The position numbers were made by a program, and so were the translations under genes. A stretch of 64,000 bases of DNA from an uncultured Opitutia bacterium (GTDB taxonomy: Bacteria; Verrucomicrobiota; Verrucomicrobiia; Opitutales; UBA953), in contig CAIOAN010000008.1 in assembly GCA_903855995.1 (NCBI GenBank), positions 310,001 to 374,000 on the forward strand, written 5' to 3'. Shown one piece after another: positions 26,688 through 31,389 of this stretch; position 1 is the stretch's first letter, and each line of letters opens with the position of its first letter. Below the pieces are notes generated by a model. That model saw nothing but the letters and a program-made list of their open reading frames with translations, had not been told where the DNA came from and did not search any database.

Positions 26688-28094
26688 ATGGCCTTCATGG
26701 ACGATCACTTCATCCTCTCGACGGGCACGGCCCAGCAGCTGTACCACGGCGTGGCGAAGGACCAGCCGATCGTCGATTACCACTGCCACCTCAGCCCGAA
26801 GGACATCGCCGACGACCGTCGTTTCGAAGACCTCACCGCCATCTGGCTCGCAGGCGACCACTACAAGTGGCGCGCGATGCGTGCCAACGGCATCAGCGAA
26901 GACCTCATCACTGGAGACAAGTCTACGTCGCGCGAGAAGTTCCAGGCTTGGGCCGAGACGGTCCCCTCCACGCTCCGTAATCCCCTCTTCCACTGGACGC
27001 ACCTCGAGCTGCGCCGCCACTTCGGCATCCAAAACGTCCTCGAAGGCGCCACGGCCCAGAAAATCTGGGACGAAGCCAACCGCCAGCTGAAGCATGGCGA
27101 CCTCACGGCCCGCGGCATCCTCAAGCTGATGAAGGTTCGCGTGGTCGGCACCACCGACGACCCGGCTGACTCGCTCGACCTCCACCACCAAATCGCGAAG
27201 TCCGGTTTCGCCACCAAGGTCGTCCCGACCTACCGCCCCGACGCGTGCCTGAAGGTCCGCACCCCTGACCGCGTGCAAGCCTGGGCCAAGCGCCTCGCCG
27301 CTGCTACGGGCAAGGGCGCCGACACCTTCGCCGGCCTGATCGCCGGCCTCAACCAGCGTCACGACGACTTCGCCGCGGCGGGTTGCCGCGCCTCCGACCA
27401 TGGCCTCGACTACCTGCCCGACGCCTCCTGCACCGAAGCCGAAGCCAAGGCCATCTGGGAAAACGCCATCGCCGGCAAGGCCGCCACGCTCGAGGAAGCC
27501 GAGAAGTTCACGGCTTTCATCATGCTGCACGTCGGCCGCCTCAATCACGCCAAGGGCTGGGCCACCCAGCTCCACCTCGGCGCCGTCCGCGACCCGAACC
27601 TCGGCCTACTCAAGCGCCTCGGCTCCGACGCCGGTTGCGACACCATCGGCGACTTCCGCCAGGGCCCCGGCCTCATCCGCTGGTTCGGCACGCTCTCGGG
27701 CGAGAACGCCCTCGGCAAGACCATCCTCTACAACCTCAACCCCGCCGACACCGCCCTCTTCGCCTGCCTACCTGGCTCGTTCCAGGACGGCGTCACGCCG
27801 GGCAAGATCCAGTACGGCTCGGGCTGGTGGTTCCTCGACCAGGAACGCGGCATGCGCGACCAGATGAATGCGCTCTCCGACCTCGGGCTGCTCAGCCGCT
27901 TCATCGGCATGATCACCGACTCACGCTCGTTCCTCTCGTATCCGCGCCACGAATACTTCCGCCGCATCCTGTGCGACCTCGTCGGCCAGGACGTCGAGTC
28001 GGGCCGCATCCCGGACCGCCAGGACTGGAACGAACGCCTGATTGCCGACGTCTGCTACGGCAACGCCAGCCAGTATTTCGGATTCCAGAAGTAA
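26688..28094 (+). CDS. uxaC: glucuronate isomerase
   Basis: UxaC isomerises D-glucuronate to D-fructuronate and D-galacturonate to D-tagaturonate. The 468-residue product matches the family length. It has the amidohydrolase-like metal motif DYHCHLSPKDIADDR near residue 30, WTHLELRRHFGI, VVGTTDDPADSL, QLHLGAVRDPN and GSGWWFLDQERGMRDQMNALS. It is the last catabolic gene of the block, 15 bases after the SDR gene. Mannonate dehydratase (UxuA) and KDPG aldolase are not in the window. Confidence 0.95.
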   Translation: MAFMDDHFILSTGTAQQLYHGVAKDQPIVDYHCHLSPKDIADDRRFEDLTAIWLAGDHYKWRAMRANGISEDLITGDKSTSREKFQAWAETVPSTLRNPLFHWTHLELRRHFGIQNVLEGATAQKIWDEANRQLKHGDLTARGILKLMKVRVVGTTDDPADSLDLHHQIAKSGFATKVVPTYRPDACLKVRTPDRVQAWAKRLAAATGKGADTFAGLIAGLNQRHDDFAAAGCRASDHGLDYLPDASCTEAEAKAIWENAIAGKAATLEEAEKFTAFIMLHVGRLNHAKGWATQLHLGAVRDPNLGLLKRLGSDAGCDTIGDFRQGPGLIRWFGTLSGENALGKTILYNLNPADTALFACLPGSFQDGVTPGKIQYGSGWWFLDQERGMRDQMNALSDLGLLSRFIGMITDSRSFLSYPRHEYFRRILCDLVGQDVESGRIPDRQDWNERLIADVCYGNASQYFGFQK

Positions 28095-28110
28095 GCGGAC
28101 CGCGGAAACC

Positions 28111-28488
28111 ATGGGCGACCTCATCATCAAGAAAGTCGTCGAGACTACATTCGGCTTCCTACCTTACCTCATCGCCTTCTCGATCATAAGCTACGTAGTA
28201 AAAGGTCGCCCTGGCCTATTCAATGACCTCACGCCCACCCGCGAACGCTCGCAGGCCGAGAAGATTCTTTCGTGGTCCGGCCTCTTGGTGATGCTCGTCA
28301 TCTTGGTTGAACTTTACCTCACCCAAAACGATCTATTCACTGCTTCCGAATCTTACTGGCTCAACATCCTGCCGCTCCTGTGGCTTGCGTTGACCCTTTA
28401 CCGCAAAGATATCCCGGGAGACCGGACCGCGACCAACGTCGGCGTATGGACGCTGGCCCCTTACGCCGCCTACGCCATCAGCCGCTAG
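28111..28488 (+). CDS. small membrane protein, apparently cut short by an in-frame TAG
   Basis: The 125-residue frame (ATG at 28111) has hydrophobic helices LPYLIAFSIISYVV, WSGLLVMLVILVELYL and LNILPLLWLALTL. It is a paralogue of the 155-residue product of 29129-29596. Shared points are TPTRERSQAEKIL / VPSRERTSGEALI, the spacing of the helices and WTLAPYAAY / WCFAPYLPF. It ends at TAG 28486-28488. The same frame continues with a segment matching the paralogue's last 30 residues, so the gene looks interrupted by one stop. The family is unknown. Confidence 0.7.
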   Translation: MGDLIIKKVVETTFGFLPYLIAFSIISYVVKGRPGLFNDLTPTRERSQAEKILSWSGLLVMLVILVELYLTQNDLFTASESYWLNILPLLWLALTLYRKDIPGDRTATNVGVWTLAPYAAYAISR

Positions 28489-28491
28489 GAG

Positions 28492-28578
28492 ATGCCTGAA
28501 AGCACCTGGCTGAGCCTATGCCTGTTCGGAGCCGCCTTCATCGTCGGCATCTTGCGCGATATCAAACGCTCGGCCTGA
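28492..28578 (+). CDS. in-frame continuation of the interrupted small membrane protein (28 residues)
   Basis: An ATG at 28492, two codons after the TAG and in the same frame, opens 28 residues ending at TGA 28576-28578. The segment LCLFGAAFIVGILRDIKRS aligns with the C-terminus of the neighbouring paralogue (FACLLAFGLIRDLRRE). Counting the TAG as one codon, the joined frame is 155 codons, equal to that paralogue's length. It may be translated by readthrough, by reinitiation, or not at all. Confidence 0.45.
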   Translation: MPESTWLSLCLFGAAFIVGILRDIKRSA

Positions 28579-28628
28579 GTCGGGAGGCTTGCCTGCGTTC
28601 GGCCGAGGGACACGATGGGAACACCCCG

Positions 28629-29120
28629 ATGCTCAAGCCACTCCTGTTCGCCTTGGTCTCCACCCTCACCCTTCTGGGGGCCGCGGATCCGAGTACGAAG
28701 AACTACCAACTGCGCGACTTCAATCTCGGCGCGCATCTCGCCGGCCCGCACCTCACCGAAGCCACGCTCAAGGGCAAGGCCGTGGCCGTCGTCTGCATGG
28801 GCACGATTTCCTCGAACCGCAACTCATGGGCCGCCGCCTGGACGCCCGAGTTCGAAGAACTCCACCAGAAGAGCTCCGCCAAGGTGACCGTGGTCGGCGC
28901 GGCCTGGGGCAAAGGAATGACCCCGAAAGATTTCGGCGAATACGCCAAGAAATTCAAACTCGATTTCGCAATCATCGCCGGCCTTGAACACGCCCCCTTT
29001 GATGTCCCGCGCGACGGCCACTGCCTCATCTTCAACCGCGATGGCAAACTCATCTACAACGGCCAGCCCAATAAAGGTAACGCCGAATTCAGGGAAGCCA
29101 TCAAGACCATCACGGAGTAA
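28629..29120 (+). CDS. secreted thioredoxin-fold-like protein without CxxC, copy 1
   Basis: The 163-residue product starts at ATG 28629 with a signal peptide (MLKPLLFALVSTLTLLGA). The mature part reads like a thioredoxin/TlpA fold: NYQLRDFNLGAHLAG, then a strand VAVVCMGTISSN where a CxxC would follow, KVTVVGAAWG, and HCLIFNRDGKLIYNG. There is no CxxC, so redox activity is unlikely. It is a paralogue of the 29675-30235 product. It follows the interrupted membrane-protein gene, forming the first of two tandem pairs. Confidence 0.72.
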   Translation: MLKPLLFALVSTLTLLGAADPSTKNYQLRDFNLGAHLAGPHLTEATLKGKAVAVVCMGTISSNRNSWAAAWTPEFEELHQKSSAKVTVVGAAWGKGMTPKDFGEYAKKFKLDFAIIAGLEHAPFDVPRDGHCLIFNRDGKLIYNGQPNKGNAEFREAIKTITE

Positions 29121-29128
29121 GCGCCCCG

Positions 29129-29596
29129 ATGACCAAACTCATCTTGCATTGGTTGGGTTGGAGTCTGGGCTGGAATGATTCCTCGCCGGCTACGAGCAGC
29201 GGTTTTGGCAGCGAACAGCTGGTGCCGTCCCGCGAACGGACCAGCGGCGAGGCCCTGATTCGCATACTTAGTACCGTGCTTTTTCTGGCCGTGATCGGCA
29301 GCAGTATTACGGACTGGCTCAACCCATTGGTCGCACCTGATCACTACTGGCTCGCCATTCCCGCCGCCCTCTGGGCCCTCCAGACATTTTTCCGACCCAG
29401 CTTGCCGATGGATGGAAATGCGATCAGCACCGGCCTGTGGTGCTTCGCCCCGTACCTGCCGTTCTTCTTCATCGACCCCACCACCACGCCGTTGTTCAGC
29501 CTCCTCTGGCAGATGGGCGGCTTCGCCTGCCTGCTCGCCTTTGGCCTCATTCGCGACCTGCGCCGCGAAATCGGCACAGATTTAGCGGGGAAATAA
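29129..29596 (+). CDS. small membrane protein, intact paralogue
   Basis: The 155-residue product has helices ILSTVLFLAVIGSSIT, YWLAIPAALWALQTFF, FAPYLPFFFI and MGGFACLLAFGLI. It ends with a short basic tail RDLRREIGTDLAGK. It is the intact relative of the interrupted product at 28111-28578. It lies 8 bases after the first thioredoxin-like gene and upstream of the second one. The family is not recognised; the repeated pairing suggests it anchors or escorts its secreted neighbour. Confidence 0.7.
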   Translation: MTKLILHWLGWSLGWNDSSPATSSGFGSEQLVPSRERTSGEALIRILSTVLFLAVIGSSITDWLNPLVAPDHYWLAIPAALWALQTFFRPSLPMDGNAISTGLWCFAPYLPFFFIDPTTTPLFSLLWQMGGFACLLAFGLIRDLRREIGTDLAGK

Positions 29597-29674
29597 GCCG
29601 AAAAAAGAAAAGACCCCATCCGAAGGCGGTGAAACTCACTTGCAGGCATAATAACAATATCTAAACACTTACCC

Positions 29675-30235
29675 ATGCGCACCCTGCTGCTCCTCGCTTT
29701 TACCGTCATCTCGGCATTCGCTGCCGAGCAGAAGCATTACCTCCGCGAATTCGCGCCGTTCAAGTCGATGTCAGGTCCGCGCCTCACGGCCGCCCTCCAA
29801 AAAGACAAAGGCGCAGTCTACATTTTCTGGCTTTACGAGTTCGAAAAATCCCGAAATGGCGAAGCCCTGAAATCTTTCCAAAAAATCGCGGAGGAATACA
29901 AGGACACGCTCGTCATGGTCGGCATTGAAAATAGTCCGAACAGCTCGATGAAGCCCGTCACGCCCAAGGAAATCGCCGCCCTCACCAAATCCGCCGGGGT
30001 GACCTTTTCCATCTACAGCGGCTGCAAAGCCCCTGTCGAAATCAACAGCTACCCGTCCATTTTCATTTTTGACCGCGAAGGACACATGCTCCATGGCGGC
30101 ATATTCCCCGAACCGGACGTGCTGGAAATCCTCTTAAAGAAGGCGGCTGCGCCGGTCGAAAAGAAAGACGGTAAAGCCGACTCAAAGAAGGACGGCAAGG
30201 AAGCCCCCAAGACCGACCCGAAGAAGGCCGCCTAA
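29675..30235 (+). CDS. secreted thioredoxin-fold-like protein without CxxC, copy 2
   Basis: The 186-residue product has a signal peptide (MRTLLLLAFTVISAFA) and a thioredoxin-like body: KHYLREFAPFKSMSG, AVYIFWLYEFEKSRNG, LVMVGIENSPNSS, and the cis-Pro region INSYPSIFIFDREGHML. The active-site CxxC is replaced by residues without cysteine. The last 35 residues are a Lys/Asp/Ala/Pro-rich tail (EKKDGKADSKKDG), absent from copy 1. It converges on alr 5 bases away. Confidence 0.72.
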   Translation: MRTLLLLAFTVISAFAAEQKHYLREFAPFKSMSGPRLTAALQKDKGAVYIFWLYEFEKSRNGEALKSFQKIAEEYKDTLVMVGIENSPNSSMKPVTPKEIAALTKSAGVTFSIYSGCKAPVEINSYPSIFIFDREGHMLHGGIFPEPDVLEILLKKAAAPVEKKDGKADSKKDGKEAPKTDPKKAA

Positions 30236-30240
30236 GGCCC

Positions 30241-31389
30241 TTAAGTACGGTCGGTTCGGTAGACGCGCTGCACCCGCTGGGTGAGCGTACAAAGCGCCTC
30301 CCAAGGAATGCAATCAGACCAGGCGCAGAATTCCGCCACGGTGATACGGTCCGCCCCCTGCCCGCCCAGAATCGTGGCGATATCGCCCACGGAAGCCTCA
30401 GGGACATCCGTCACGTCGACGATGGTCTGATCCATCGTCACCCGGCCGAGAATCGGACAGCGCTGGCCGCGCACGAGAAACTGCCCACGATTGCTCGCCG
30501 CCGTCGGCACACCGTCGCCGTAACCCACCGCCACGATCGCCACGCGCGTCGGACGCGAAAGCGTCTTAGTGCGGTTATAGCTCACCGCAGTCCCCGCAGG
30601 CAGGTCTTTGACCAGGACGACCCGCGCATGAAAGGAAAGCACCGGCTCAGGGCGGAGACTCGCCAGGAATGATCCAGCGGAAGGAGGCAGGCCATACTGC
30701 ATCAATCCCACCCGCACGGCGTTAAAGGGAGCGTTGGCTGAAAAACTTTCCAGACCGGCGCTGTTGTCCGCATGAATGAGCAACCCTGCCCGCAGCGAGG
30801 CCGGAATCAATTCCAGCAATCCCAGGAAAATCTTCCGCTGATCTGCGGTGTAACCGGCGTCGGTATCCGCATCGGAGAAGTGGGTGTATACGCCGCGCCA
30901 TGCAAACTCGGGCACGGATTGCACGAAGGCGAATAGTTCGGCGGCCTGCGCATGCCAGACCCCGGAACGACCCATACCGGTGTCGACCTTGACGTGCACC
31001 TTCGCCTGGCGATGCAAAGCCCGCGCCAAGGCGGCGAGCGCCTGAGCTTCAGCCAGCGAATTGAGCGTGATGTCCAATTCGAGGGCGAGCGCTCGCGGCA
31101 ACTCTCCCGGCAGGGTCGGGCTGAGCAGGAGGATATCCGCGTCGTGCCCCATCTCCCGCAGCACGGCGGCTTCGGCGACATTGGCGACGGCGAAACAATC
31201 CACCCCGGCCTGCAGCAGGCGCGTGGCGACCTCGGGCATCCCGTGTCCGTAGGCATTGGCTTTCACGACGGCGACATAGCGTACCTGGGGCGGCAGCGAT
31301 TGCTTGATGCGACCAACATTACGATCGATGGCGGGCAGATCGATCTCCACCCAAGCCCGGGCGGCGAAACTATTGGAGGAGGCGCTCAT
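30241..31389 (-). CDS. alr: alanine racemase
   Basis: Alr is a PLP enzyme that makes D-alanine for peptidoglycan. The 382-residue product has VAVVKANAYGHGMPEVA with the PLP lysine near residue 43, VHVKVDTGMGRSGV, and the C-terminal domain with YNRTKTLSRPTRVAIVAVGYGDGVP and VTMDQTIVDVTD. The length is normal. The ATG overlaps the stop of the upstream tsaB-like gene, so the two are translationally coupled. Confidence 0.95.
   Translation of the reverse strand: MSASSNSFAARAWVEIDLPAIDRNVGRIKQSLPPQVRYVAVVKANAYGHGMPEVATRLLQAGVDCFAVANVAEAAVLREMGHDADILLLSPTLPGELPRALALELDITLNSLAEAQALAALARALHRQAKVHVKVDTGMGRSGVWHAQAAELFAFVQSVPEFAWRGVYTHFSDADTDAGYTADQRKIFLGLLELIPASLRAGLLIHADNSAGLESFSANAPFNAVRVGLMQYGLPPSAGSFLASLRPEPVLSFHARVVLVKDLPAGTAVSYNRTKTLSRPTRVAIVAVGYGDGVPTAASNRGQFLVRGQRCPILGRVTMDQTIVDVTDVPEASVGDIATILGGQGADRITVAEFCAWSDCIPWEALCTLTQRVQRVYRTDRT

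Follow-up and report, generated by a model that had tools for sequence, protein, structure and literature searches.

The described cases that lie closest to the gene reported here are the candidates for stop-codon readthrough, pyrrolysine or amber-suppressor recoding, and the ordinary nonsense-mutated genes (young pseudogenes) of bacteria. Low dN/dS in the sequence flanking in-frame stops has been taken as a sign of readthrough in bacteria, and most such stops are assumed to be short-lived and without functional recoding (Belinky et al. 2021, PMC7918605). Here, we describe a small membrane protein gene, referred to as A-type, that is interrupted by an in-frame TAG in the window, the whole stretch of 64,000 nucleotides that was analysed. 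The window comes from a freshwater Opitutae bacterium and lies on a 497-kb contig of a genome of 2.66 Mb (13 contigs, 97% complete). We argue that the gene is an accessory one and that the interruption is probably a nonsense mutation of recent date.

The A-type frame (28111-28575) runs in a single phase for 155 codons, counting the TAG that interrupts it at codon 126 (Table 1). From the ATG at 28111, 125 sense codons lead to the stop; beyond it the frame resumes with GAG ATG and continues, its phase unchanged, for 29 sense codons (28 when counted from the ATG) until a TGA at 28576-28578. Since orthologues of 45-63% identity read straight across the position of the stop, the two parts do not lie side by side by chance, and the original prediction that a single frame is divided here by TAG is confirmed. 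A codon-score scan of the window for further split frames gave little information, most of its hits being antisense shadows or neighbouring genes in a common frame.

Table 1. Coordinates of the split gene and its neighbours in the window.
Feature	Position	Strand	Basis
uxaC (glucuronate isomerase), at the left edge of the variable interval	26688..28094	+	Pfam PF02614, E 1e-183
Small membrane protein gene (A-type), codons 1-125 up to the premature stop	28111..28485	+	ORF reading; orthologues
In-frame TAG, codon 126	28486..28488	+	Codon and DNA alignments with orthologues
Post-stop part of the A-type gene, 29 codons and TGA, with the last predicted TM helix and G-x-x-R-D tail	28489..28578	+	26/29 residues identical to L031; dN/dS 0.105
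Possible reinitiation frame, 28 aa, judged not to be a separate gene	28492..28575	+	ATG not conserved in orthologues; AGGAG abuts the ATG
Redoxin-like protein, signal-peptide-like start, between both membrane genes	28629..29120	+	phmmer to PDB 28db_A 'Redoxin domain protein', E 1.4e-4
Intact B-type paralogue, a 155-aa member of the same membrane protein family	29129..29596	+	Uninterrupted frame; BLASTP
Second redoxin-like frame (tentative)	29675..30235	+	Open frame; homologues in the same interval of relatives; no family match
Alanine racemase-like frame (alr), right boundary	30241..31389	-	Open frame; conserved beside the interval in relatives; named by eye from the sequence, not by profile search

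The intact B-type gene is a distant paralogue of the split gene, and neither the A-type nor the B-type protein matches a Pfam or NCBIfam family. The two align by BLASTP with an E value of 2e-13 and 27% identity over residues 38-153. This alignment runs past the stop, pairing LFGAAFIVGILRDIKR of the split gene with GGFACLLAFGLIRDLRR of the paralogue, and the claim that the part after TAG corresponds to the C-terminus of the paralogue is borne out: the post-stop codons are homologous. The split frame had also been matched to this neighbour by its length. Both do come to 155, but the agreement is a coincidence and gives no evidence of correspondence, since the N-terminal 37 residues are unaligned, the alignment contains gaps, and lengths vary among orthologues and paralogues (approximately 143-151 residues for intact A-type orthologues, 153-159 for the other paralogues).

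The codon found at the stop position in related genomes is of particular weight. Among 55 genomes of the genus that were searched, the A-type gene is present in 13 besides that of the window, and the orthologues used lie in the same place, downstream of uxaC. The comparison with orthologues that had been suggested for this site shows that relatives do not end the protein at this point: in the codon alignment, a sense codon stands opposite the TAG in each of the 13 other carriers. Lysine (AAG or AAA) is encoded in nine of the ten close orthologues and arginine (AGA) in the tenth, while the three most distant ones have histidine or proline. TAG at codon 126 is confined to the genome of the window (G000) among the 55. 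In the nearest relatives in this region, L031 and L034, the sequence reads AGC CCG AAG GAG ATG CCC where that of the window reads AGC CGC TAG GAG ATG CCT, so that one A-to-T change accounts for the stop. The sense codons in all 13 relatives favour a recent nonsense mutation, the first of the explanations offered earlier, and leave sequence error as the remaining serious rival. The TAG would then have arisen in sequencing, consensus calling or assembly, or would represent a minority strain within a metagenome-assembled genome, and most cells would carry an intact gene. The same-genus carriers of the gene are named as uncultured Opitutae or Verrucomicrobia metagenome-assembled genomes from lakes, and the genome of the window, with its 13 contigs and 97% completeness, is probably of the same kind, which gives some room to an error. 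However, errors in a high-quality assembly take the form of a single substitution, as would be the case in this 497-kb contig, less often than that of an indel, and the neighbouring genes that were examined showed no frameshift. A second copy of the species' sequence was sought among viral contigs by exact pattern, with no match. Although we consider an error or minority variant unlikely, it is the main rival to a nonsense mutation, and we infer that the TAG base is real and the change young.

A young change is also consistent with the state of the tail. Over the 29 post-stop codons, 7 synonymous and 3 nonsynonymous differences separate the gene from L031 (dN/dS 0.105), compared with a dN/dS of 0.174 for the 44 codons before the stop and 0.135-0.37 when intact relatives are compared with each other over the same region; the region is short, and these values alone are compatible with a young, an unreal or a read-through stop. 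Relaxed constraint past the stop was looked for by dN/dS against L031 and was not found, and the label of decayed pseudogene is unsupported. The post-stop part appears to be as constrained as the remainder of the gene. Relaxation need not be seen if the mutation is so recent that changes have had no time to gather. Since the tail shows no decay, the stop is either very young, or an error, or read through; constraint on the whole gene, tail included, would also be expected of a readthrough product or of a wrong base, and an undecayed tail together with a codon one base away in the relatives is a point in favour of an error.

Programmed or suppressor-mediated readthrough of the TAG would yield some full-length protein, and the constraint unbroken across the stop (dN/dS 0.1) is the signature on which Belinky et al. 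2021 (PMC7918605) relied. A stop too young for decay explains this constraint equally well, however, and the same paper itself regards most such stops as short-lived and unrecoded. The position of the stop is not conserved across species: it is occupied by Lys or Arg in close orthologues, with His or Pro in distant ones, and TAG is seen in one genome only. None of the 44 tRNA genes detected, all of which could be assigned an anticodon, has the anticodon CTA, and RF1 (prfA) is present with a match above the curated cut-off; readthrough by means of a suppressor tRNA was rejected on these grounds. Furthermore, TAG terminates about 10 of the 54 non-overlapping long frames in the window, which is ordinary usage. 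Readthrough promoted by RNA structure was rejected as well, the RNA at 28470-28560 being less structured than its shuffles (z +0.70), and no Rfam element was found in 28050-30300. Readthrough, also among the options of the original prediction, finds no support in the tRNA set, the release factor, the RNA structure or the conservation of the stop, and we consider it very unlikely. It is scarcely credible that low-level amber readthrough serves as a conditional on/off switch selected in the species, with the TGA of another genome, G070 (see below), as a parallel case.

Another option put forward for the split frame was reinitiation. Ribosomes terminating at TAG would start again at the ATG at 28492, and the resulting peptide of 28 residues, with a single helix, would complement the truncated part as a separate product. 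The ATG does lie 3 nt past the stop, with GGAG before it. This GGAG, however, abuts the ATG without a spacer and equals the ancestral Glu codon plus flanking bases, while the ATG itself is an internal Met codon in L031 and L034; other orthologues have Leu, Val, Thr or Ala codons in its place. Nor does any relative have a split gene. With its start codon unconserved, reinitiation is without support and, in our estimation, extremely improbable.

The surroundings of the gene bear on whether a nonsense mutation could be tolerated. In 30 genomes in which the surroundings of uxaC were compared, uxaC lies directly beside the alr-like gene in five, and one to about four genes separate the two in others. 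The genes of this interval (28095-30240 in the window, L087-L116 in the genomes compared) encode membrane proteins of the A, B and C types as well as redoxin-like proteins; the redoxin-like protein at 28629-29120 has no Pfam or NCBIfam match above cut-off. While the contents of the interval vary, uxaC retains 74-94% DNA identity across the genus. The A-type gene is also broken, independently, in another species. In G070 (L038, G070:C35:10767-11180) codon 62 of the aligned frame is TGA, compared with TGG (W) in the close relative G065 (L039), and the two genes otherwise differ by only six nucleotides. Premature stops are thus found in 2 of the 14 carriers of the A-type gene, at different positions. 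The singleton stop of G070 could be an artefact of the same kind as an erroneous TAG, but the TAG of the window sits in a gene whose dispensability is shown independently, and one would expect such a gene to tolerate a genuine nonsense change. Judged by its distribution, the A-type gene is accessory and dispensable in the genus; absent or broken as often as it is, it can bear a nonsense mutation.

Several other features of the interval were observed. At L033:1029-1169, only 47 residues remain of the redoxin-like gene that lies between the A- and B-type membrane genes, a further indication that genes are being lost from the interval. The A-type genes at L031:2632-3063, L032:1696-2127 and L034:2989-3420 form a clean mosaic in DNA identity: L031 is 91-100% identical to L032 in the first half and 75-86% in the second, while its last 50 codons are 95-100% identical to those of L034, and the first half of the same pair is only 37-55% identical. 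The pattern points to an intragenic recombination event close to the YWLNILP motif. In addition, the approximately 19 bases that directly follow the A-type stop codon (28579-28597, GTCGCGAGGCTTGCCTGCG) show strong conservation among close orthologues, including those in which a different gene follows. They are found in L004-L007, L031-L034, L038 and L039 and have no Rfam match; GAGGCTTGCNTGCG occurs a single time in the genome. These surroundings are somewhat more widely useful than the stop itself: in this genus, the interval between uxaC and alr is a fast-changing spot, where genes for small membrane proteins and redoxin-like proteins come and go, break, and recombine in halves.

What the stop removes can be described from the predicted protein. 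An AlphaFold2 model of the read-through protein, built from 9 sequences, is of low confidence (mean pLDDT 61, pTM 0.39) and served for helix positions only; the helices are predicted at residues 2-30, 48-70, 79-97, 105-123 and 131-153. The stop at codon 126 takes away exactly the last of these, together with G146, R149 and D150, and leaves four of the five helical stretches. The three residues make up a G-x-x-R-D tail that is invariant across orthologues and paralogues. From the loss of the last helix and of this invariant motif, we infer that the product is inactive; a loss of function is likely, although the 125 residues, with their four helical stretches, could still be partly functional. 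We propose that a recent single-base substitution converted AAG (Lys) to TAG at codon 126 of 155. Translation would most likely stop at the TAG and give a 125-residue product without the last TM helix or the G-x-x-R-D tail, which would probably be non-functional. In a dispensable gene such as this, the mutation can persist as a loss-of-function allele or as a young pseudogene.

The case, an accessory gene truncated recently in a single genome, is of little significance by itself, and it should not be cited as an instance of readthrough. It resembles the readthrough candidates of Belinky et al. 2021 (PMC7918605) in that dN/dS is below 1 on either side of the stop, but differs from them in that the stop occurs in no other species, the youth of the stop explains the constraint on the tail, and neither a suppressor tRNA nor an RNA structure was found. 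With pyrrolysine or amber-suppressor recoding it shares the codon, TAG; here, no CTA anticodon is present among the 44 tRNAs, RF1 is present, TAG is an ordinary terminator, and the relatives have Lys or Arg. Its closest likeness is to ordinary nonsense-mutated bacterial genes, with which it has in common a stop in a single genome, intact orthologues, dispensability with variable presence, and a sense codon one substitution away in the nearest relatives. Unlike in those young pseudogenes, the tail has not yet decayed, which would place the gene, its base being read from an assembly, at the very young end of their range.
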